Part shown: positions 1,786-9,066 of the stretch, in pieces
Position numbering within the stretch: the stretch's first letter is position 1
Layout of the letters: every line of letters begins with the position of its first letter
NCBI GenBank assembly: GCA_002356515.1
Contig: AP017605.1
Span: 4,880,776 to 4,944,775 of the forward strand
Direction: 5' to 3'
Origin: Mesorhizobium loti
Lineage (GTDB): Bacteria; Pseudomonadota; Alphaproteobacteria; Rhizobiales; Rhizobiaceae
Length of the DNA: 64,000 nucleotides
The notes under the pieces: generated by a model
Databases searched by the model: none
What the model saw: only the letters and a program-made list of their open reading frames with translations
Told to the model about the DNA's origin: nothing
Program-made: the position numbers and the translations under genes

Positions 1786-2070
1786 ATGGATATTGTCTCT
1801 GGAACGATCTTGCGGCTGGCGGACGACGCCTCGGTCCAGCATGTCGGCGACGGTGCCGTCGTGCTTCTGGCGCGCAGCGGCCAGCTCTATACCTGCAACG
1901 GCACGACCGAAGCCTTTCTCGACAAAGTCGACGGCGCGCGCAGCCTCGACCAGATCGTCGGCCTGCTTTGCGAGGAGTTCGAGGTCGACAAGGATACGCT
2001 GGGTGAGGATATGGCGGCATTGGCCGCCGATCTGGTCTCGGAAGGCATCCTCGCCGCCCCAGGTGCTTGA
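1786..2070 (+). CDS. PqqD-like peptide recognition protein (RRE domain)
   Basis: A 94-residue protein spanning a complete PqqD fold: an N-terminal strand pair (LRLADDASVQHVGDGAVVLL), LYTCNGTTEAFL where these proteins usually have a Asn/Gly-containing turn, then helices with a SLDQIVGLLCEEFEVD segment and a C-terminal GILAA strand. PqqD proteins bind the leader peptide of ribosomally made peptides and present it to the modifying enzymes; stand-alone copies serve as the B1 protein in lasso peptide systems and as the chaperone in HprK-related-kinase systems. It is followed 16 bases later by a B2-like protease gene. The ATG at 1786 is chosen because upstream in-frame sequence has no protein character; a GTG at 1783 is equally possible. 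Confidence 0.8.
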   Translation: MDIVSGTILRLADDASVQHVGDGAVVLLARSGQLYTCNGTTEAFLDKVDGARSLDQIVGLLCEEFEVDKDTLGEDMAALAADLVSEGILAAPGA

Positions 2071-2086
2071 TGGCTGAGGTAGGCGC

Positions 2087-2524
2087 ATGATGGCTGACGG
2101 TCCGCTCCTGCGTGCCCTGTTTCGCTGCCATCTCTGGGCAAGCGCCCGGCTGATGCCGGCCCTCATTGCCGGGCGCAGCTTCGAGGACGTGCTGAAATGG
2201 GCGCCGCTCGCCTCCTCGACGCCCTATCGCGGCCTGCCTGCCGCCTACATCGTCGCCCACGTCAACCGCACTGTGCGCCATCCCTGGTTGATGCGCGACC
2301 GCAGATGCCTGCGTGAAGGCCTGCTCGGCCATCGTTTCCTGCGCCTCGCCGGCTTCGATCCAGAGCTGCGTTTTGGCGTCGATCCGAAGTCGCTGCAGAC
2401 GCCACGCGTCTCGGCGCATTGCTGGGTCTGCCTCGACGGCAGGCCGGTGGTCAGTGACAGCCTTCCCGGCATGGTCGAGATCTATCGCCACCATGCCGAT
2501 GCCTCGAAGGCGCGCCCCGCGTGA
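2087..2524 (+). CDS. Lasso-peptide B2-type transglutaminase-like cysteine protease
   Basis: A 145-residue protein with the layout of lasso B2 leader peptidases. Visible putative triad: Cys74 in RDRRCLREGLLGHRFL, His111 in VSAHCWVCLDG, and Asp117 in the same motif. The N-terminal half is helical and lacks motifs, as usual in this family. B2 enzymes cleave the leader from the precursor using PqqD/B1-bound substrate. The start has two adjacent Met codons; GAGGTAG lies 7 bases upstream. It overlaps the next gene by four bases (GTGA), which implies translational coupling. No asparagine-synthetase-like cyclase is present in the window, so a classical lasso product is not assured. Confidence 0.8.
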   Translation: MMADGPLLRALFRCHLWASARLMPALIAGRSFEDVLKWAPLASSTPYRGLPAAYIVAHVNRTVRHPWLMRDRRCLREGLLGHRFLRLAGFDPELRFGVDPKSLQTPRVSAHCWVCLDGRPVVSDSLPGMVEIYRHHADASKARPA

Positions 2525-3507
2525 GCAGGCCTTCAGCGTGTTATAGTCTCAACGGTCAGGTCTTCGGCATCTCGGCCGAACGCCCCGAGCTGTGGCAGGA
2601 TTTCGACAGGATGCTGGGCATTCTGCGTATCGAAGGCGCCGTCGAGCCGGACTTTCGCCTTGATATTAACGAGGCGGATATCCTGGACGAGGCACCCGGC
2701 GGATCGCTCGTCTTCGACGGCGAAATACCCGAAGACGGCTACTGCCGGATGATTGCCGACGGCGGCACCACCCATCTCGTCTTTCCCGGACGCCAGACCG
2801 TTGCCATCAATGACGAGGAAGGGTGGGCCGAGCTCAGGATTCGCGCTGGTGCGAAGGCCGCCTGGACGCCGTCAATGCTGGTGCTGGATGCCGCACTCGA
2901 CGCTGGCGGCCAGCATATGCTGCACACCGCCGGGCTGACGCTGCCGGGGCACGATGCCGTAGTCCTGATCCACGCGCCAAGCGGCACCGGCAAGACCACG
3001 ACGTCGCTGGCGCTGGCAACGCAAGGCTTTGGCCTGTGCTCCGACGATGCCATGATCCTGAACGTCGCTTCGGGCAAGCCTCTGGCCTGGGGTCTGCCGC
3101 GCCACGTCAAGATCCACCAGAAGACCGCCGAAATGATCCCGCTGGTTGCGCCTTGTCTTGGCCCATCATGGGACAGGAATGGCGAACAGGCCGTCTCGCT
3201 CGAGCGGTTGGGCGAGATCGTCCGCATCGAGAGCCCGGTCGCCAGGCCGGTGGCGGCCCTGCTGCACCTGGCGCGGTCCGCCGACAGCGAGACCCGATTG
3301 GTGCCCATGGCGCGGACCGACGCGATGGTGGCGCTGGCGATGGACAATGTCCGCACCGGCATGACCGGCCTGTTGCCGCTGCAGAAGCGCCGGCTGGCAA
3401 CGATCGGCAGACTGGTGTCCTCGGTGCCGACCTTCACCCTCGAAGTGGGCGCGCGCCCGGCCGACGCGGCGGCGTTGATCAACGCCACATTGACCGAGCA
3501 GGACTGA
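2521..3507 (+). CDS. HPr-kinase-related kinase of a PqqD/B2 system
   Basis: A 328-residue protein with a P-loop APSGTGKTTTSLALA at residues about 152-166 and an SDDAMIL motif at 174-180, the nucleotide and metal sites of the HPr kinase C-terminal fold. The N-terminal half (about 1-140) is beta-rich and unlike the DRTGG domain of true HPr kinases. Related kinases occur in lasso peptide clusters, where they phosphorylate the precursor C-terminus, and in clusters with a PqqD protein and a nucleotidyltransferase. It starts with GTG inside the stop of the B2 gene. It is convergent with the nucleotidyltransferase gene, with a gap of 10 bases. Substrate unknown. Confidence 0.8.
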   Translation: MSRPSACYSLNGQVFGISAERPELWQDFDRMLGILRIEGAVEPDFRLDINEADILDEAPGGSLVFDGEIPEDGYCRMIADGGTTHLVFPGRQTVAINDEEGWAELRIRAGAKAAWTPSMLVLDAALDAGGQHMLHTAGLTLPGHDAVVLIHAPSGTGKTTTSLALATQGFGLCSDDAMILNVASGKPLAWGLPRHVKIHQKTAEMIPLVAPCLGPSWDRNGEQAVSLERLGEIVRIESPVARPVAALLHLARSADSETRLVPMARTDAMVALAMDNVRTGMTGLLPLQKRRLATIGRLVSSVPTFTLEVGARPADAAALINATLTEQD

Positions 3508-3517
3508 AACCGGAGGT

Positions 3518-4540
3518 TCAGCCTGGGTACGGCCTGGCCCTGGCCAGCCGCTGGATCCAGCGGAAAGCATCGCGGCGCAGGCGCGAGCTGATTTTTTCCC
3601 GGGAATTGACCCGGAGCAGCGTGTTCGTCGTGATCAACCGCTTGGCGAGCCTTATCGAAAGGTCTGGTTTGATGCGCCCGGCGAGCTCGAGCGCGCGAGC
3701 CTCGCCGAACAGTTCACCGGTCACGTTGAGCACGATCGCCAGTTCGAGTTCGACGCCGGTCATGCGGGCGGCATCGAGCAGGCGGGTTTCGGATTCCTCT
3801 GATTGCAGCGCTCGCACCCCTTGCAGCACGTCGACACAAAGCTGCAGGCGATGGAATTTGTGCCCGCCGGCGGCATGCACGATGGCGATCGTCAAAAGCG
3901 CGGCTGGCGTGTCCGTCGCCTCGCCGTCGATGATGCCCAGTTCGCGGAACCCCAGCGACAGGCGCCGCCGCATCCCGCTGTCATGCACCAGGTCGCCATG
4001 CAGTTCGACCAGCAGGCTGGAATTCTCCTTTTCCAGCCATTTGAATTCCTGCAGTTGGTAGGATTCGGCCTCGTCGCTGCCGAGCACGAAGCCGCATGCC
4101 GCGATCACTTGGTTCGCCCGTGCCAGATTGGCGGGCTCGACCAGGATGTCGATGTCGGTGAACGGCCGGTCGGATACGTTGCGATAGAGCTTGCGCGCGA
4201 AGACCGGTCCCTTGACGATCCGCGCCGGAATGCCTTGCGCCGCCATCCCCTTCATGATGCGGGCGCCATGATATTGCAGCAGCATCGACTGGCCGGTGGC
4301 GATCGTCGCCTTGTCGCGCAAATCGTCGAGCTTCCCCCGCACGCCGGCGTTCGGCGGCAGATGCGCGTCGCCACGCTCCTGCAATTTGCGCAGCATGATC
4401 GGCAGGACGCCGTGGAATTCGGCATTGTCGAGCAGCGCCGACAGTGCCTTTGCCGACAAATTGTCCTCGACCGCCGCGGCCTCCGGATCGGCGAAACGCA
4501 GCAGCAGTCTTTCTTCGGCTGACGTGAGCGATGGCAGCAT
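3518..4540 (-). CDS. Nucleotidyltransferase family protein (NTP_transf_5-like)
   Basis: A 340-residue protein with features of the uncharacterised nucleotidyltransferase family found beside lasso and HprK-related clusters: GIPARIVKGPVFARKLY, then RPFTDIDILVEPANL, which carries the metal-binding D-x-D pair of polymerase-beta-type transferases, and a later LLVELHGDLVHDSGM with a further acidic residue. These enzymes are expected to move a nucleotide onto a peptide or small molecule; the actual acceptor is not known. It converges on the kinase gene and lies 73 bases downstream of dhaK in the same direction, so it could share either transcript. Start uncertain: ATG at 4540 is preferred, but an in-frame TTG at 4552 exists and neither has a strong ribosome site. 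Confidence 0.75.
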   Translation of the reverse strand: MLPSLTSAEERLLLRFADPEAAAVEDNLSAKALSALLDNAEFHGVLPIMLRKLQERGDAHLPPNAGVRGKLDDLRDKATIATGQSMLLQYHGARIMKGMAAQGIPARIVKGPVFARKLYRNVSDRPFTDIDILVEPANLARANQVIAACGFVLGSDEAESYQLQEFKWLEKENSSLLVELHGDLVHDSGMRRRLSLGFRELGIIDGEATDTPAALLTIAIVHAAGGHKFHRLQLCVDVLQGVRALQSEESETRLLDAARMTGVELELAIVLNVTGELFGEARALELAGRIKPDLSIRLAKRLITTNTLLRVNSREKISSRLRRDAFRWIQRLARARPYPG

Positions 4541-4613
4541 CAACGCGGACAATGTCGTAAATCAGGGGAATGTTCCGGGAGATGGTTGCAGAAAAGCGTA
4601 GCTGAAGCCAGCT

Positions 4614-5600
4614 TTACATGCCCCAGCGCAAGGCCGCCGTGTGGACGGGCGCGTCCCACCAGCCGGTCATCTCGTCATCGAGCATGGTGAGCGTGATCGA
4701 GCAGCCGGCCATGTCGAGCGAGGTGACATAGCTGCCGACCAGCGAACGGCTTATCGTCACGCCGTACGTCTCGAAAATCCTTCGCGCGCTGTTGTACATC
4801 AGATAGAGCTCCATCAGCGGAGTGCCGCCGAAGCCGTTGACGAACAATAGCGCCGGGCCCTTCGCTCTGTCGCCGAGATCGCCCAGGATCGAGGCACAGA
4901 TCTCCTCGGCGATCGCGTCAGCGCTCTTCAACGTGTCGCGGCGGCGGCCCGGCTCGCCATGGATGCCGACGCCGAATTCCATCTCGCCGTCGCTTATGTC
5001 GAAGGTTGGCTTGCCGGCCGCCGGCACCGTGCCGCTGGTCAGCGCCACGCCCATCGAGCGGGTGGCGGCATTGACGCGTTCGCCCAGCGCCTTCAGCACC
5101 GGCAAAGCCAAGCCATGCTCGGCCGCCGCGCCGACGATCTTTTCCACCACCAGCGTACCGGCGACGCCGCGCCTTCCGGTCGTGTAGGACGAGTTCTCGA
5201 CGGCGACGTCGTCATTGGTCACCACCTGCAAGACGCCATCCGACATTTCCGCCGCCATGTCGAAGTTCATCACATCGCCCTCGTAGTTCTTGACGATGAA
5301 CAGGCAGCCGGCGCCGCTGTCGACGGCCTGCGCCGCCGCCAGCATCTGGTCCGGCGTCGGCGAGGTGAACACCTGGCCGGGGCAGGCGGCGTCCAGCATG
5401 CCATGGCCGACAAAGCCGGCATGCAGCGGCTCGTGGCCCGAGCCGCCGCCGGAGATCAGCGCCACCTTGCCCGGCCGCAAGGTCTTGCGGCGGACGAATT
5501 TATGGTCCTCGCCAAGCGCGAGGATATCGGCATGGGCGGCCACGAAACCGTCGAGGCTCTCGGTCAGCACCGTGTCCACCGCGTTCATAAATTTCTTCAT
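4614..5600 (-). CDS. dhaK: Dihydroxyacetone kinase subunit DhaK
   Basis: A 328-residue DAK1-domain protein, the usual length for DhaK. It has the substrate-binding SGGGSGHEPLHAGFVG at residues about 50-65, the IVKNYEGDVMNFDMA segment, and His214 in GVGIHGEPG, the residue that forms a covalent hemiaminal with dihydroxyacetone in characterised DhaK proteins. It would hand substrate to DhaL-ADP in the cytoplasm. It is the last gene of the long operon that starts at 16553 and is preceded by GGAGGACGCC before the ATG at 5600. Related DAK proteins can use C4 ketoses such as erythrulose, so dihydroxyacetone is the likeliest but not the only substrate. Confidence 0.92.
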   Translation of the reverse strand: MKKFMNAVDTVLTESLDGFVAAHADILALGEDHKFVRRKTLRPGKVALISGGGSGHEPLHAGFVGHGMLDAACPGQVFTSPTPDQMLAAAQAVDSGAGCLFIVKNYEGDVMNFDMAAEMSDGVLQVVTNDDVAVENSSYTTGRRGVAGTLVVEKIVGAAAEHGLALPVLKALGERVNAATRSMGVALTSGTVPAAGKPTFDISDGEMEFGVGIHGEPGRRRDTLKSADAIAEEICASILGDLGDRAKGPALLFVNGFGGTPLMELYLMYNSARRIFETYGVTISRSLVGSYVTSLDMAGCSITLTMLDDEMTGWWDAPVHTAALRWGM

Positions 5601-5631
5601 GGCGTCCTCCCAAACAGCCCGGCAAGAATGG

Positions 5632-6057
5632 TCAGCTGCCACCCTTGCCGGCGATGCTGGTGATCTTCTGGATGAATTCGTTGATCGCCCGGTCGAGCGC
5701 CGCATTCTGCTTGTCGTCGCCGAAATCCGGCACGACAAGCGACACATGCCGCGTCTTGCGCATGCCCGCGGCGATCGACATTTTCCCCGGATGCGCCTGA
5801 TGGTAGGCGGCGAGGAACTGATCCCGCTCGGCCGGACTGAAATGGCAGACGGAAAAGATAGCCGGCAAATGCTTGGATGGAATCGGCACCGTATAGGCCG
5901 GGCTCGAAATCTGCGTCACGAAGCTGCGGTGCTTGCCGAGCGCGTCGGCCAGGCGCTGGCGCATGCCGGACGGGCGCTGGTCGATCACCTGCGACAGGAT
6001 CGTCTTGTAGGCGCGGATCGCCTCTTCGGAACCGGGTTCGGGTTTGATGTCAACCAT
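5632..6057 (-). CDS. Unrecognised 141-residue protein in the dha operon, possible helix-turn-helix
   Basis: A small soluble protein placed 31 bases before dhaK and 11 bases after the enzyme I gene, so clearly in the operon. It opens with MVDIKPEPGSEEAIRAYKTI and contains GMRQRLADALGKHRSFVTQI followed by SSPAYTVPIPSKHLPAIFSVC, a spacing that resembles the helix-turn-helix of Cro-like regulators, then a PAERDQFLAAYHQAHPG helix. The C-terminal third (HVSLVVPDFGDDKQNAAL) is different in character. I infer a regulatory or scaffold role in dihydroxyacetone use, but the family is not one I can name and no experiment supports DNA binding. Confidence 0.7.
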   Translation of the reverse strand: MVDIKPEPGSEEAIRAYKTILSQVIDQRPSGMRQRLADALGKHRSFVTQISSPAYTVPIPSKHLPAIFSVCHFSPAERDQFLAAYHQAHPGKMSIAAGMRKTRHVSLVVPDFGDDKQNAALDRAINEFIQKITSIAGKGGS

Positions 6058-6068
6058 GCCGGCCGCGC

Positions 6069-7643
6069 CTAGACCGAAACATAAGATATGGCCGCCTTGG
6101 CCATGGCGAGCTGCGCCGGCGCGACGGACAGGTCGCGCAAGCCGGTTTCGAGCAGCGAAGGGATCGCGGCCGGATCACCGCCGGCATCGCCGCACAGGCT
6201 GACGGGAATGTTGTTTTCCCGTCCAAAGGCCGTGACCGAGCCAATCAGCCGCAGCACCGCCGGATGGCGGACCGAATTGAGGTGGGCCACAGCAGCGTTG
6301 TCCCGCGCGGCCGCCATCACATATTGCGTCAAATCGTTGGAACCGATCGAGAAGAAGGCGACGCCGGCGAACGCCTCCGGCGCGATGGCGACTGAAGGCA
6401 CCTCGACCATGATGCCAAGCGGCGGCATTTTGTGGGCAACACCGCGCACGGCAAGTGCTGCCTGCTCCTCCGCAAACAATGCGGCTGCTCGTTCATACTC
6501 ATCGGCCATGGCGATCATCGGAAACATGACCCTGAGATTGCCGTGTGGCGCAGCGCGCAGCAATGCCCTGATCTGTACGCGAAAAATGTCGAGCCGCGCC
6601 AGTGACAGCCTGATGCCGCGCAGCCCGAGGAACGGATTGCCTTCCTCGACGGTGAAGCCCGGCACCGGCTTGTCGCCGCCGGCGTCGACAGTGCGGATCG
6701 TCACCGATTTCCCGTCGGCCCATTCCAGCACCTTGCGATAGGCGCGATACTGCGTCTCCTCGTCCGGCAATGTCTTGCCGAACAGGAATTCGGTGCGCAT
6801 CAGGCCGACCCCGTCGCAGGTCGCGATGTCGATGCCGTCGACATCGGACGGGTCGGCGATGTTGACCTGCACCCGCACCGCCGTGCCGGCCTCGGTCATC
6901 GCCGGCCGCGCCAGAAAACTTTGCGCCATGCCCTGGCGGGTCGCGAAGGAGGCGGATGACTGCCGGAACGCGCCGATCTCCGCCGGCGAGGGCGCCAGCA
7001 CGATGCTGCCATGCTCGGCGTCGAGCAGCGCGACGCCGGCAAGATCGGCAGGCGGTTCGCGCAGCCCCACGACCATCGGCACGCCACGCGAGCGCGCCAG
7101 CATGGCGACGTGGCTGGCCGTGCTGCCCGCCTTCAGCGCGATGCCGCCGCCATGGCTCCAGTCGGTTTCGAGAAAGCGCGTCGGCGCGATGTCCTCGCCA
7201 CACAGGATGGCGCCGGAAGGCGCTGTGCTGCCGCCGTCCTCGGTCAGGGCGCGCAGCACCTGGTCCCTTATGTCGCGCAGATCCGTGGCGCGGGCGCGGA
7301 AATAGTCCTGGTCCGAGGCCTCGTAGCCGGCGATCTCGGCATCGAGTGCCTCTCGCCAGGCCACGTCGGCGGTCTGCCCCGAAGCGATCGATGCGAAGGC
7401 CGGCCCGCTCAGCGCGTCGTCTTCCAGCATGGCGATGTGGAATTCGAGTATGCCTGCGGCGTCGCTGTCGACAGTTTCGACCATTGCTGAAAGCCGCTTT
7501 ACCGCCTTGCCGATCGCGGCTTGCAGCGATGTCGTCTCTTCCGCTGATGTGGCTTTGCCTGCATAGACGGCCGACGGCCGGTCGAGGTCGAACAGCGGCC
7601 CCTCGGCATAGCCGGCCGAGGCCGGAACACCCTCAATCCGCAT
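6069..7643 (-). CDS. PEP-protein phosphotransferase (enzyme I) of the dha operon
   Basis: A 524-residue enzyme I of compact type, without GAF or other additions. The N-terminus is RIEGVPASAGYAEGP; the phosphohistidine is His178 in GSTASHVAMLAR; the PEP-binding barrel shows GLMRTEFLF, GFTVEEGNPFLGLRGIRLSL, FFSIGSNDLTQY and a near-terminal VSLCGDAGGD where the catalytic Cys is kept. It moves phosphate from PEP to HPr. Its place between HPr and dhaK indicates a dedicated phosphate relay for DhaM. The ATG at 7643 has AAGGA nine bases upstream; an in-frame GTG at 7688 overlapping the HPr stop is an alternative start. Confidence 0.9.
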   Translation of the reverse strand: MRIEGVPASAGYAEGPLFDLDRPSAVYAGKATSAEETTSLQAAIGKAVKRLSAMVETVDSDAAGILEFHIAMLEDDALSGPAFASIASGQTADVAWREALDAEIAGYEASDQDYFRARATDLRDIRDQVLRALTEDGGSTAPSGAILCGEDIAPTRFLETDWSHGGGIALKAGSTASHVAMLARSRGVPMVVGLREPPADLAGVALLDAEHGSIVLAPSPAEIGAFRQSSASFATRQGMAQSFLARPAMTEAGTAVRVQVNIADPSDVDGIDIATCDGVGLMRTEFLFGKTLPDEETQYRAYRKVLEWADGKSVTIRTVDAGGDKPVPGFTVEEGNPFLGLRGIRLSLARLDIFRVQIRALLRAAPHGNLRVMFPMIAMADEYERAAALFAEEQAALAVRGVAHKMPPLGIMVEVPSVAIAPEAFAGVAFFSIGSNDLTQYVMAAARDNAAVAHLNSVRHPAVLRLIGSVTAFGRENNIPVSLCGDAGGDPAAIPSLLETGLRDLSVAPAQLAMAKAAISYVSV

Positions 7644-7684
7644 GGCCCGCATTCCTTGCGGGCCGGCGAAGCCGCGCGTCAGCC

Positions 7685-7987
7685 TCACGCCGAGCGGACA
7701 TGACCGGTGTCCTCGTCGAAATCGCGCTGCACAAGGTCGATCAGCGCGCGCACCGCATCATCGGCGCCATTGCCGCTGGCCCTGATGTGCAGCACCGTGC
7801 CCTTCGGCGCCTTGGCCGCCATCACCTTGACGATGCTCTTGGCGTCGAACCATGGCCCGTTGGCGGCCAGCGCGATTTCCACGTCGGCGGCAAAGGTCTT
7901 GGCCAGCTTGGTGAACTTCACCGAGGGACGCGCATGCAGCCCCACATCGTGGGTGATCAGGACGGTCGCTTCGGCGGCTGCGGACAT
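7685..7987 (-). CDS. HPr-family phosphocarrier protein of the dha operon
   Basis: A 100-residue HPr. His18 lies in DVGLHARPSVKFTKLA, the canonical phosphorylation loop, and the rest (FDAKSIVKVMAAKAPKGT) keeps the regulatory-loop position with a Ser, as in usual HPr proteins. It carries phosphate from enzyme I to DhaM. It sits 18 bases after dhaM. ATG at 7987 is preferred; an in-frame GTG at 8005 would add six residues. Alphaproteobacteria usually also carry a nitrogen-type HPr elsewhere, so this one is likely specialised for the kinase encoded around it. Confidence 0.9.
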   Translation of the reverse strand: MSAAAEATVLITHDVGLHARPSVKFTKLAKTFAADVEIALAANGPWFDAKSIVKVMAAKAPKGTVLHIRASGNGADDAVRALIDLVQRDFDEDTGHVRSA

Positions 7988-8005
7988 TTCAGAGATCCCG
8001 TTCAC

Positions 8006-8395
8006 TCACGACGGCGACAATTCATGCGCCGTCGCCACCACTTCCTTCAGCGAGGCGCCGCCGGAGGATTCGGTCGCCGCCATCACCGCACCTTCGACGA
8101 TCGGCGCGTTGCAGACGATGATCTTCTGCGCACGCGGCTCGCCGATCATCTCCACTGCCATTTCCGAATTGGTCTCGGCGCCGCCGAGATCGACGAGGAT
8201 GGCGACACCGGCTTCCGACCAGGCCTTGTCGATGGCGCCCATGATCGCCTCGACATTGGTACCGAGCCCGCCATGGCCGTTTCCGCCGCACCATGCAAGC
8301 GGCACTTCGTCGCCCACCATCTGGCGTACCATGTCGGCCGTGCCCTCCGCGACCAGCGGCGAATGCGACACGATCACGATCCCGACATTGCTCAT
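8006..8395 (-). CDS. dhaM: PTS-dependent dihydroxyacetone kinase phosphotransferase subunit DhaM
   Basis: A 129-residue protein equal to the EIIA-mannose-like N-terminal domain of DhaM alone. The active His is in VGIVIVSHSPLVAEGT near residue 10, and the GGLGTNVEAIMGAI and ILVDLGGAETNSEMAVEMI segments are typical of the fold. In E. coli DhaM this domain is fused to HPr and a partial enzyme I; here those functions are encoded by the next two genes. It re-phosphorylates the ADP held by DhaL. It overlaps dhaL by four bases (ATGA). Confidence 0.92.
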   Translation of the reverse strand: MSNVGIVIVSHSPLVAEGTADMVRQMVGDEVPLAWCGGNGHGGLGTNVEAIMGAIDKAWSEAGVAILVDLGGAETNSEMAVEMIGEPRAQKIIVCNAPIVEGAVMAATESSGGASLKEVVATAHELSPS

Positions 8396-8994
8396 GCGCT
8401 TTCCCCGATCGCTTGCCCCACAGAGCGCACCAGCAGCGCGCTCGAGCGCGCGCCGGCATCCATATGGCCGATCGAGCGGTCGCCGAGGAACGAGGCGCGG
8501 CCGCGCAGCGCCTTCATCGGCACGGTCGCTTCGGCAGCGGCATCGGCGATGTCGGCGATCTCCGCCGCCGTCTTGCCGCCGGCCAAGGCGTCATGCACCG
8601 GCTGCAGCACATCGAGCATGGTTTTTTGGCCAGGCTGTGACTTGCCGCGCGCGGCCACCGCTTCGATCGCCTTGCCGAAGGCGGCCGTCAGGCTGGCGCG
8701 ATCGGGGTCCGTCGCGATCTCCTTGCCCAGTGCCATGAACAGCGTGCCGAACAGCGGACCGGAGGCGCCGCCCACCGTCATCACCAGCTTGGTGCCGATC
8801 GCTTTCAGGGCGTCGGGCAGCGGCTTGGCGGCGAACGCGTCAGCCTCGGCCCGCACGGCCTCGAAGCCGCGCTTCATGTTCAGCCCATGGTCGCCGTCGC
8901 CGATCGCCTGGTCGAGCGCCGTCAATTCCTCGGCGTGAGCGGCAATCGTATCGGCGGCCGCCGTGATCAGCCTGGCAAGGTTCAACGCCGCCAT
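8392..8994 (-). CDS. dhaL: Dihydroxyacetone kinase subunit DhaL
   Basis: A 200-residue DAK2-domain protein. The nucleotide and Mg2+ site is visible as AIGDGDHGLNMKRG near residues 29-42, followed by TVGGASGPLFGTLFM and SQPGQKTMLDVLQP, all hallmarks of DhaL. It keeps ADP bound as a cofactor that is phosphorylated by DhaM and then phosphorylates substrate on DhaK. The ATG at 8994 is chosen because upstream in-frame residues do not resemble the family. It follows the fused DhaKL gene in the same direction. Confidence 0.92.
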   Translation of the reverse strand: MAALNLARLITAAADTIAAHAEELTALDQAIGDGDHGLNMKRGFEAVRAEADAFAAKPLPDALKAIGTKLVMTVGGASGPLFGTLFMALGKEIATDPDRASLTAAFGKAIEAVAARGKSQPGQKTMLDVLQPVHDALAGGKTAAEIADIADAAAEATVPMKALRGRASFLGDRSIGHMDAGARSSALLVRSVGQAIGESA

Positions 8995-9066
8995 GTCGCC
9001 CAAAATCCCGGTTTCCAGTCTGCCGGCAGTAGCGAAAGAACGATCATTCGACAACTGGTGCATGAG

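Follow-up and report, generated by a model that had tools for sequence, protein, structure and literature searches.

In this work, we found that four adjacent genes at the start of a 64,000-nt stretch of the Mesorhizobium loti chromosome (hereafter the window; AP017605.1 of GCA_002356515.1, positions 4,880,776-4,944,775, forward strand; G000:C1:4880776-4944775 of an 8.45-Mb genome in four contigs) probably form the maturation machinery for a family of ribosomally synthesized and post-translationally modified peptides (RiPPs). The four genes, hereafter the set, encode a PqqD-like protein, a B2-type leader peptidase, an HprK-like kinase, and a nucleotidyltransferase-like protein of the NTP_transf_5 family (NTase). 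We put at about 80% the probability that the set matures a lasso-related, cyclase-free linear phosphopeptide, acting in trans on many precursors. As far as sequence comparison can establish them, the set, a precursor family, the linkage of the two, a fixed leader register, a near-invariant serine, and independence from the lasso cyclase (LasC) support this reading.

Across the genus, the distribution of the candidate precursor peptides matches that of the set better than that of the lasso cyclase. Searching with a leader-only profile (17 rows of 21 amino acids; match cut-off E ≤ 1e-3) gave 835 matches in 101 of the 146 Mesorhizobium genomes in our genus sample. These matches are present in all 97 set-bearing genomes versus 4 of the 49 set-less ones (one or two each). 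When LasC presence was scored at E ≤ 1e-60 against the LasC of the genus, 103 genomes had the cyclase: 92 had both the set and LasC, five the set only, 11 LasC only, and 38 neither, such that the two part company in 16 of 146 genomes. Because of these discordant genomes, the associations of set and LasC with the peptides are separable. The number of leader matches per genome was 3-27 (median 8) with both, 6-16 with the set only, 0-2 (median 0) with LasC only, and 0 with neither. Among matches to PF13471, the set-type B2 occurs alone in the five set-only genomes (one of which, G122, is just 79% complete) and the lasso-type B2 occurs alone in the 11 LasC-only genomes.

The candidate precursors are mostly 28-40 amino acids long and consist of a leader like MKKTYEKPVLVKREKLSAVTA and a variable core; some adjoin the set in relatives, and many lie elsewhere as single genes. 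In the M. loti genome, the profile indicates about ten precursors, nine of them matched with E below 1e-7 and the tenth with E 0.006; one more match is doubtful. They are located at approximately 1.51, 1.64, 1.83, 1.865 (three), 1.889, 2.69, 2.73, and 6.27 Mb, all more than 1 Mb from the set at 4.88 Mb. One example has MKKTYAKPTLLKREKLSAVTA before the predicted cut and DTCTSVCV after it, and a second has MRKPYDKPTLVKRQKLSAVTA followed by QQAASGSGPIGPAG. No precursor was found inside the window, where a six-frame profile scan gave a best E of 1.8. A preliminary description of this DNA, made from the letters alone, had proposed that the set may act on a non-lasso peptide or work in trans, with its precursor encoded elsewhere, and had advised a genome-wide search for peptides with a PqqD-binding leader. 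The peptides found by that search, with their distance from the set and their distribution in the genus, support both parts of the proposal as far as sequence can. As for annotation, the RefSeq protein WP_258589678.1 (Mesorhizobium sp. AR02 plasmid), named "putative RiPP precursor", is 65% identical to a family precursor over its full length; it is the sole annotated case seen, and its name gives no maturation genes, class, or modification. A second plasmid match to the precursor family has no annotated feature. A gene family shared by the surroundings of the dispersed precursors was sought and rejected, with the largest reaching 18 of 72 loci, orthologous sites included.

In relatives, precursors can be found beside the set. 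We compared 80 named set loci, the best 80 of 92 from a scan with one B2 peptide pattern (71 counted as Mesorhizobium, 67 of them so named, and nine others), with flanks of up to 8 kb, less at contig ends. PqqD, B2, and kinase were matched in 80/80, the NTase in 79/80, and a local precursor in 40/80 (32/71 in Mesorhizobium and 8/9 in the others). The local-precursor profile was trained on part of the same 80 loci; among the six non-genus loci unused in training, five have a precursor. The preliminary description had considered that the four genes might always lie beside a LasC and a precursor; LasC was matched in the flanks of none of the 80 loci (0/80), and the discordant genomes likewise speak against such a rule. 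Among 397 genomes from the order, a kinase profile matched 17, of which six belong to the genus and 11 to other genera. All four genes occur together in one locus in 11/11 of these other-genus loci, with no LasC match in the 11-19 kb fetched around them. In eight of these 11 loci, pattern scans identified small open reading frames (ORFs) close to the set, with leaders of the Y-x-[KR]-P type, and a profile raised the count to nine. The profile made from pattern-found peptides also gave several Mesorhizobium precursors, which lie either in front of PqqD or in the interval from the NTase to dhaK. No convincing precursor was found in loci L189, L194, and L313. The relatives located by the B2 pattern are mostly Mesorhizobium. 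Other set-bearing records come under the titles Kaistia, Phreatobacter, Ancalomicrobiaceae, Hyphomicrobiales, Rhizobiaceae, Ca. Sedimenticola (a gammaproteobacterial metagenome-assembled genome, MAG), and, in the case of another MAG, Phycisphaera; three of the outside loci (L317, L320, and L321) come from the same genomes as L196, L190, and L192. In a Rhizobiaceae MAG, the set is adjoined by a tandem array of ten precursors (L322, 9478-11413) that share one leader and have Ser/Thr at core positions 3-6.

The leader register is fixed. Thirty-one leader-selected peptides were taken from the best 29 of the 835 leader-match loci, and are thus not a random draw; the pattern that parsed them fixes the leader end and permits Tyr at -16 to -18. 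Together with others obtained through a core-containing profile, they make up 61 genus peptides, among which Tyr -17, Pro -14, and Leu -12 are each found in 60/61 and Thr -2 in 56/61 (one peptide has Cys at -17, perhaps a false reading, and that of L239 is doubtful at E 1.1). Tyr -17 is also found in 36/36 peptides from outside the genus, with tandem copies included and the cut site placed by the analyst. This is the register of BsfA from Bradymonas (Y-17, P-14, L-12), whose kinase acts on Ser3 and in which these three residues and position -2 were probed experimentally (PMC10368454). In the cores, Ser is at +5 in 29 of the 31 leader-selected peptides and at +6 in the other two, other positions vary, and Ser makes up 13% of all core residues. 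The outside-genus peptides have Ser or Thr between +3 and +6 in 36/36. The precursors also appear to be real genes: a Shine-Dalgarno-like stretch precedes 31/31 of the leader-selected peptide genes by a lenient test, and TTGACA occurs 40-85 nt upstream of 39/61 precursor genes versus 24/3725 control windows, although orthologues among these genes are not independent.

The four genes are open, intact frames, with the positions and families given in the preliminary description, and they are not chance frames because B2 and kinase are each matched in 97/146 genus genomes. The first gene (1786-2070, + strand) encodes a 94-amino-acid PqqD-like, B1-like discrete RiPP recognition element (RRE) with 46.3 bits to PF05402 (cut-off 23.4). 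It is 77-90% identical among 14 genus orthologues, weakly matches the solved lasso B1 proteins TfuB1 (E 1.9e-5) and TbiB1 (E 2.9e-3), and matches the NCBIfam lasso PqqD models below cut-off only (37/70 bits). It is predicted to recognize the YxKPxL motif in the leaders of the dispersed precursors. The second gene (2087-2524, + strand) encodes a B2-type leader peptidase of 145 amino acids, with 43.8 bits to PF13471 (cut-off 26) and 68.2 bits to the NCBIfam model lasso_biosyn_B2 NF033537 (cut-off 33); it is 97% identical to the B2 of two further genus genomes. A catalytic triad of Cys74, His111, and Asp117 had been proposed for it, with loss of catalytic residues on alignment named as a point against the proposed role of the set. 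Such a loss is seen for Asp117 only: Cys74 and His111 are present in 12/12 aligned B2 proteins of the set type, as well as in the B2 of the lasso cluster in this genome, whereas position 117 is Asp in just 7/12, and therefore Asp117 is not a general catalytic acid. Its structure model (pLDDT, the predicted local distance difference test, 80.5) had a putative cysteine protease as best PDB match at E 0.17 and no match at E ≤ 0.001; the model is compatible with a cysteine protease, yet is no evidence for one. One set-type B2 copy, in another genome (G002:C1 1400423-1400851), carries a single internal TGA.

The third gene (2521-3507, + strand, GTG start) encodes the 328-amino-acid HprK-like kinase, which falls below the cut-offs of Hpr_kinase_C (17.8/33.3 bits) and HprK_rel_A (32.4/200). 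The cut-offs of the HPr-rel-A system (TIGR04352/TIGR04353) are likewise not reached by this kinase (32.4/200 bits) or by PqqD (14.1/35 bits). The P-loop reported as intact in the preliminary description is conserved: His135, Ala152-x2-Gly155-x-Gly157-Lys158-Thr/Ser159, and Asp175-Asp176 are fixed in 15/15 genus orthologues save for the Thr/Ser choice at 159. These residues correspond to key residues of BsfK, with Ala152 replacing Gly163 of BsfK (PMC10368454). By the same analogy, the kinase is predicted to phosphorylate the precursor core Ser. The convergent fourth gene (3518-4540, - strand) encodes the NTase, with 95.3 bits to PF14907 (cut-off 31.2). Orthologue alignment favours the ATG at 4540 over the TTG at 4552 as its start, and Asp128, Asp133, Asp135, Glu183, and His185 are fixed in 15/15; its AlphaFold2 model (pLDDT 58) was too poor for use. 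For the alignments, the L186 sequence was truncated at its stop codon, and L191 and L094 were left out. Profile searches against solved structures gave an HPr kinase at E 0.024 only and nothing useful for the NTase. No match was found in PHROGs, and the kinase had no match among PLSDB plasmids at E ≤ 1e-8.

According to the mechanism that we propose, PqqD would hold the leader of the small precursors through Y-17, P-14, and L-12, and the kinase would phosphorylate the core Ser, mostly at position 5, with the leader still attached. The B2 cysteine peptidase would then cleave after residue -1 (usually the Ala of ...V-T-A) and yield a linear phosphopeptide of about 7-18 residues. We infer binding, phosphorylation, and cleavage from BsfB1, BsfB2, BsfK, and LppK (PMC10368454, PMC13381572), and by this analogy phosphorylation is the better supported modification. 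The NTase may elaborate the phosphate, perhaps with a sugar or nucleotide; this is a guess drawn from PsmN, which is needed for the hexose on phosphoserine in pseudomycoidin (PMC9266682). Formylation in some genomes by a formyltransferase, export, and the biological role of the peptides are also guesses. One set would serve many precursors in trans, namely, about ten here and as many as the 3-27 leader matches found per set-bearing genus genome.

Among published systems, the linear polyphosphorylated peptides (LPPs) of Bacillota (Popov et al., 2026; PMC13381572) share with the set a discrete RRE, an HprK-like kinase, an NTP transferase, a core set without a cyclase, a YxxP leader, and a Ser near the core N-terminus. 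Another shared trait is frequent occurrence close to polysaccharide loci and alongside phosphorylated lasso clusters in one genome. The set contains the RRE, kinase (below curated cut-offs), and NTP transferase without a cyclase that characterize LPP clusters. However, LPP clusters use an SpI-type signal peptidase and an MsbA-like transporter, whereas here a B2 cysteine protease is present and an adjacent exporter was not found; they have 1-3 precursors of 35-200 amino acids per cluster, whereas the precursors here are mostly 28-40 amino acids and largely dispersed; and they are described as having Ser3 and as restricted to Bacillota, whereas here the Ser is mostly at 5 and the hosts are mainly Hyphomicrobiales. 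The Bsf system (BsfA/B1/B2/K/N) resembles the set in its B1, B2, kinase, and NTase partners and its leader, and a Ser near the core N-terminus is phosphorylated, as predicted here (in Bsf, B1 stimulates this step); it differs in that its cluster holds a lasso cyclase and a transporter, residue -2 is Ile, and the Ser is at 3 (PMC10368454). The paeninodin and pseudomycoidin systems (PadeK/PsmK, PsmN) have an HprK-like kinase, pseudomycoidin also a nucleotidyltransferase, but their modified Ser is C-terminal and a lasso cyclase is present (PMC9266682). We found no description of the set, its link to the peptides, or the dispersed arrangement in the open-access literature. It is somewhat better than an even bet that this is a new RiPP branch, in which one chromosomal, lasso-related, cyclase-free set serves up to 27 dispersed precursors per genome, whose leader is frozen and whose core is hypervariable, and in which the resulting short linear phospho-(glyco/nucleotidyl-)peptides, of which some may be formylated, form a changing repertoire for signalling or competition in Mesorhizobium.

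Several observations weigh against the linear phosphopeptide reading. Ser5 is not universal (53/61 genus peptides and 19/36 outside, or 24/36 counting Thr), and position -2 is Val or Ala in several of the peptides beside the set. The kinase scores below the Pfam and NCBIfam cut-offs and carries Ala where BsfK has an important Gly. No exporter was found beside the set in this genome. Four set-less genomes retain one or two peptides each. The peptides show an association with LasC as well (96/103 genomes with LasC versus 5/43 without), because LasC and the set overlap. Finally, the genomes are related, so Fisher p-values overstate the evidence; the values obtained (2e-33 for the set and 2e-22 for LasC against peptides) ignore kinship and are descriptive only.

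Of the other explanations considered, the one that survives best, at roughly a one-in-ten level that we regard as unlikely, is that the set does process the peptides by a main chemistry other than phosphorylation, such as direct nucleotidylation, with Ser5 kept for another reason. The near-constant presence of the NTase at set loci would fit, as would the fact that the authors of the LPP study could not identify the final product (PMC13381572), but such HprK-like kinases phosphorylate the core Ser in both BsfA and LppA (PMC10368454, PMC13381572). Slightly less probable still is co-inheritance of precursors and set by descent without a functional link, another enzyme maturing the peptides. The counts do come mostly from related genomes of one genus, and all precursors in this genome are far from the set. 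However, set-less close kin (G018, G019, G020, G071, and G118) have 0-2 peptides versus 6-20 in set-bearing kin (G000, G007, G017, and G135), and set-adjacent precursors also occur in other families and in the gammaproteobacterial MAG.

The preliminary description had noted that a cyclase and a precursor were missing nearby, which holds for the window; upstream on the same chromosome, however, is a complete lasso cluster (G000:C1, about 4845.9-4853.5 kb; L042 7939-15469), with its cyclase 32 kb from the B2 of the set. The genome-wide LasC search that had been advised thus found a cyclase, in a separate cluster. This cluster sits in an exopolysaccharide locus and contains an NTase, a precursor (A), B1, B2, the cyclase (794 bits to NF033535, cut-off 525), a kinase, and an ATP-binding cassette (ABC) transporter. 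Its precursor scores over the cut-off of a lasso family and has the core GGGGSTAIDASFPAHTPIGDLTFS after ...TITQ, with Asp at position 9. This core likewise carries Ser at position 5. Across 20 fetched lasso loci, the 50-amino-acid lasso precursor is 74-100% identical to that of this genome, which is rather constant for a RiPP. Over the aligned parts, each of the lasso B1, B2, kinase, and NTase proteins shares only about 26-33% identity with its counterpart in the set, and therefore the two groups of genes are not recent copies. In four fetched set-only genomes, the polysaccharide locus is continuous and the lasso genes are absent. The sequence evidence makes the upstream cluster a system separate from the set, and both are cassettes. 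Two set-bearing genomes have LasC split in two matches (G050:C1 628774-630683 and G077:C1 3583056-3584737); the lasso pathway may be decaying in these genomes, whose set B2 and kinase read whole.

The set itself is no lasso cluster, because a cyclase was sought and is absent from it; it has the discrete RRE and B2 peptidase of such clusters, and neither a cyclase in the cluster nor a ring-capable core. We consider it improbable, more so than co-inheritance, that the set is an accessory of the upstream cluster that acts on the lasso precursor or shares its cyclase, the peptides becoming lassos. The co-occurrence of set and LasC in the genus, their distance of 9-33 kb in ten compared genomes, the similar leader motifs (Y..P.L, Thr at -2), and the overall LasC-peptide association would agree with such a role. 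However, the lasso cluster owns its B1, B2, kinase, NTase, and transporter; the peptides are kept in the five set-only genomes and almost gone in the 11 LasC-only ones; no LasC match lies in the fetched flanks of the 80 named set loci; and only 3/31 leader-selected cores have Asp/Glu at 7-9, with Gly first in 3/31. Supply of LasC in trans was rejected because of the discordant genomes. Least probable of all is that the kinase targets the HPr of the adjacent dihydroxyacetone-kinase/phosphotransferase system (PTS) operon and the peptides are incidental. HPr (PF00381), EIIA, an enzyme-I-like protein, Dak1, and Dak2 do adjoin the set, but 13/15 fetched set-less loci retain dhaK directly after the small flanking ORF and the 11 kinase-selected other-genus loci have no dhaK match, yet contain PqqD, B2, and NTase with the kinase in 11/11.

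If the cyclase-free phosphopeptide reading is true, such RiPPs would extend from Bacillota to Mesorhizobium and other Hyphomicrobiales, with a lasso-type B2, and a single enzyme set would feed many scattered precursors. Genome mining limited to enzyme-adjacent precursors would overlook many such genes. The core variety (835 leader matches in 101 genomes) would make the substrate rules of RRE, kinase, and peptidase directly testable, and a full lasso pathway with its own B1 and B2 in the same cell would provide a natural test of precursor sorting by two related RREs.

Regarding the neighbourhood, the dihydroxyacetone kinase/PTS group (Dak1, Dak2, EIIA-man, HPr, and enzyme-I-like) adjoins the set at window positions 4617-9063. 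On the other side is a conserved 38-amino-acid ORF (1395-1511, - strand) with a hydrophobic C-terminal half and no family match, found in 121/146 genus genomes. In set-less loci, this small ORF and dhaK are about 130-235 bases apart in 13/15 fetched; the gap is 2.6 kb in one of the remaining two, and no dhaK was found in the other. The ORF was considered as a precursor, as it adjoins the set in the window and in 20/20 fetched loci, but it is present in at least 24 set-less genomes and is therefore a flank gene. No exporter was found among the genes scanned beside the set in the window, and one may lie elsewhere; the ABC genes matched at 11-13 kb of the window share only 27-29% identity with the exporter of the lasso cluster, and 5/80 set loci have matches of this kind. 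No SpI-like peptidase was found among the scanned neighbours (the frame at 5635-6057 is without family), and a genome-wide search was not made. A formyltransferase-like gene was matched in 10/71 Mesorhizobium set loci. One such gene adjoins a dispersed precursor of the M. loti genome (L233 369-1430, - strand) and is 50% identical to one within the set of another genome (L085 2979-3992). Finally, a gene at L187 (6360-6752, - strand), near the same four-gene set, encodes a Peptidase_S74 (endosialidase chaperone) domain joined to a leader that resembles those of the precursors.

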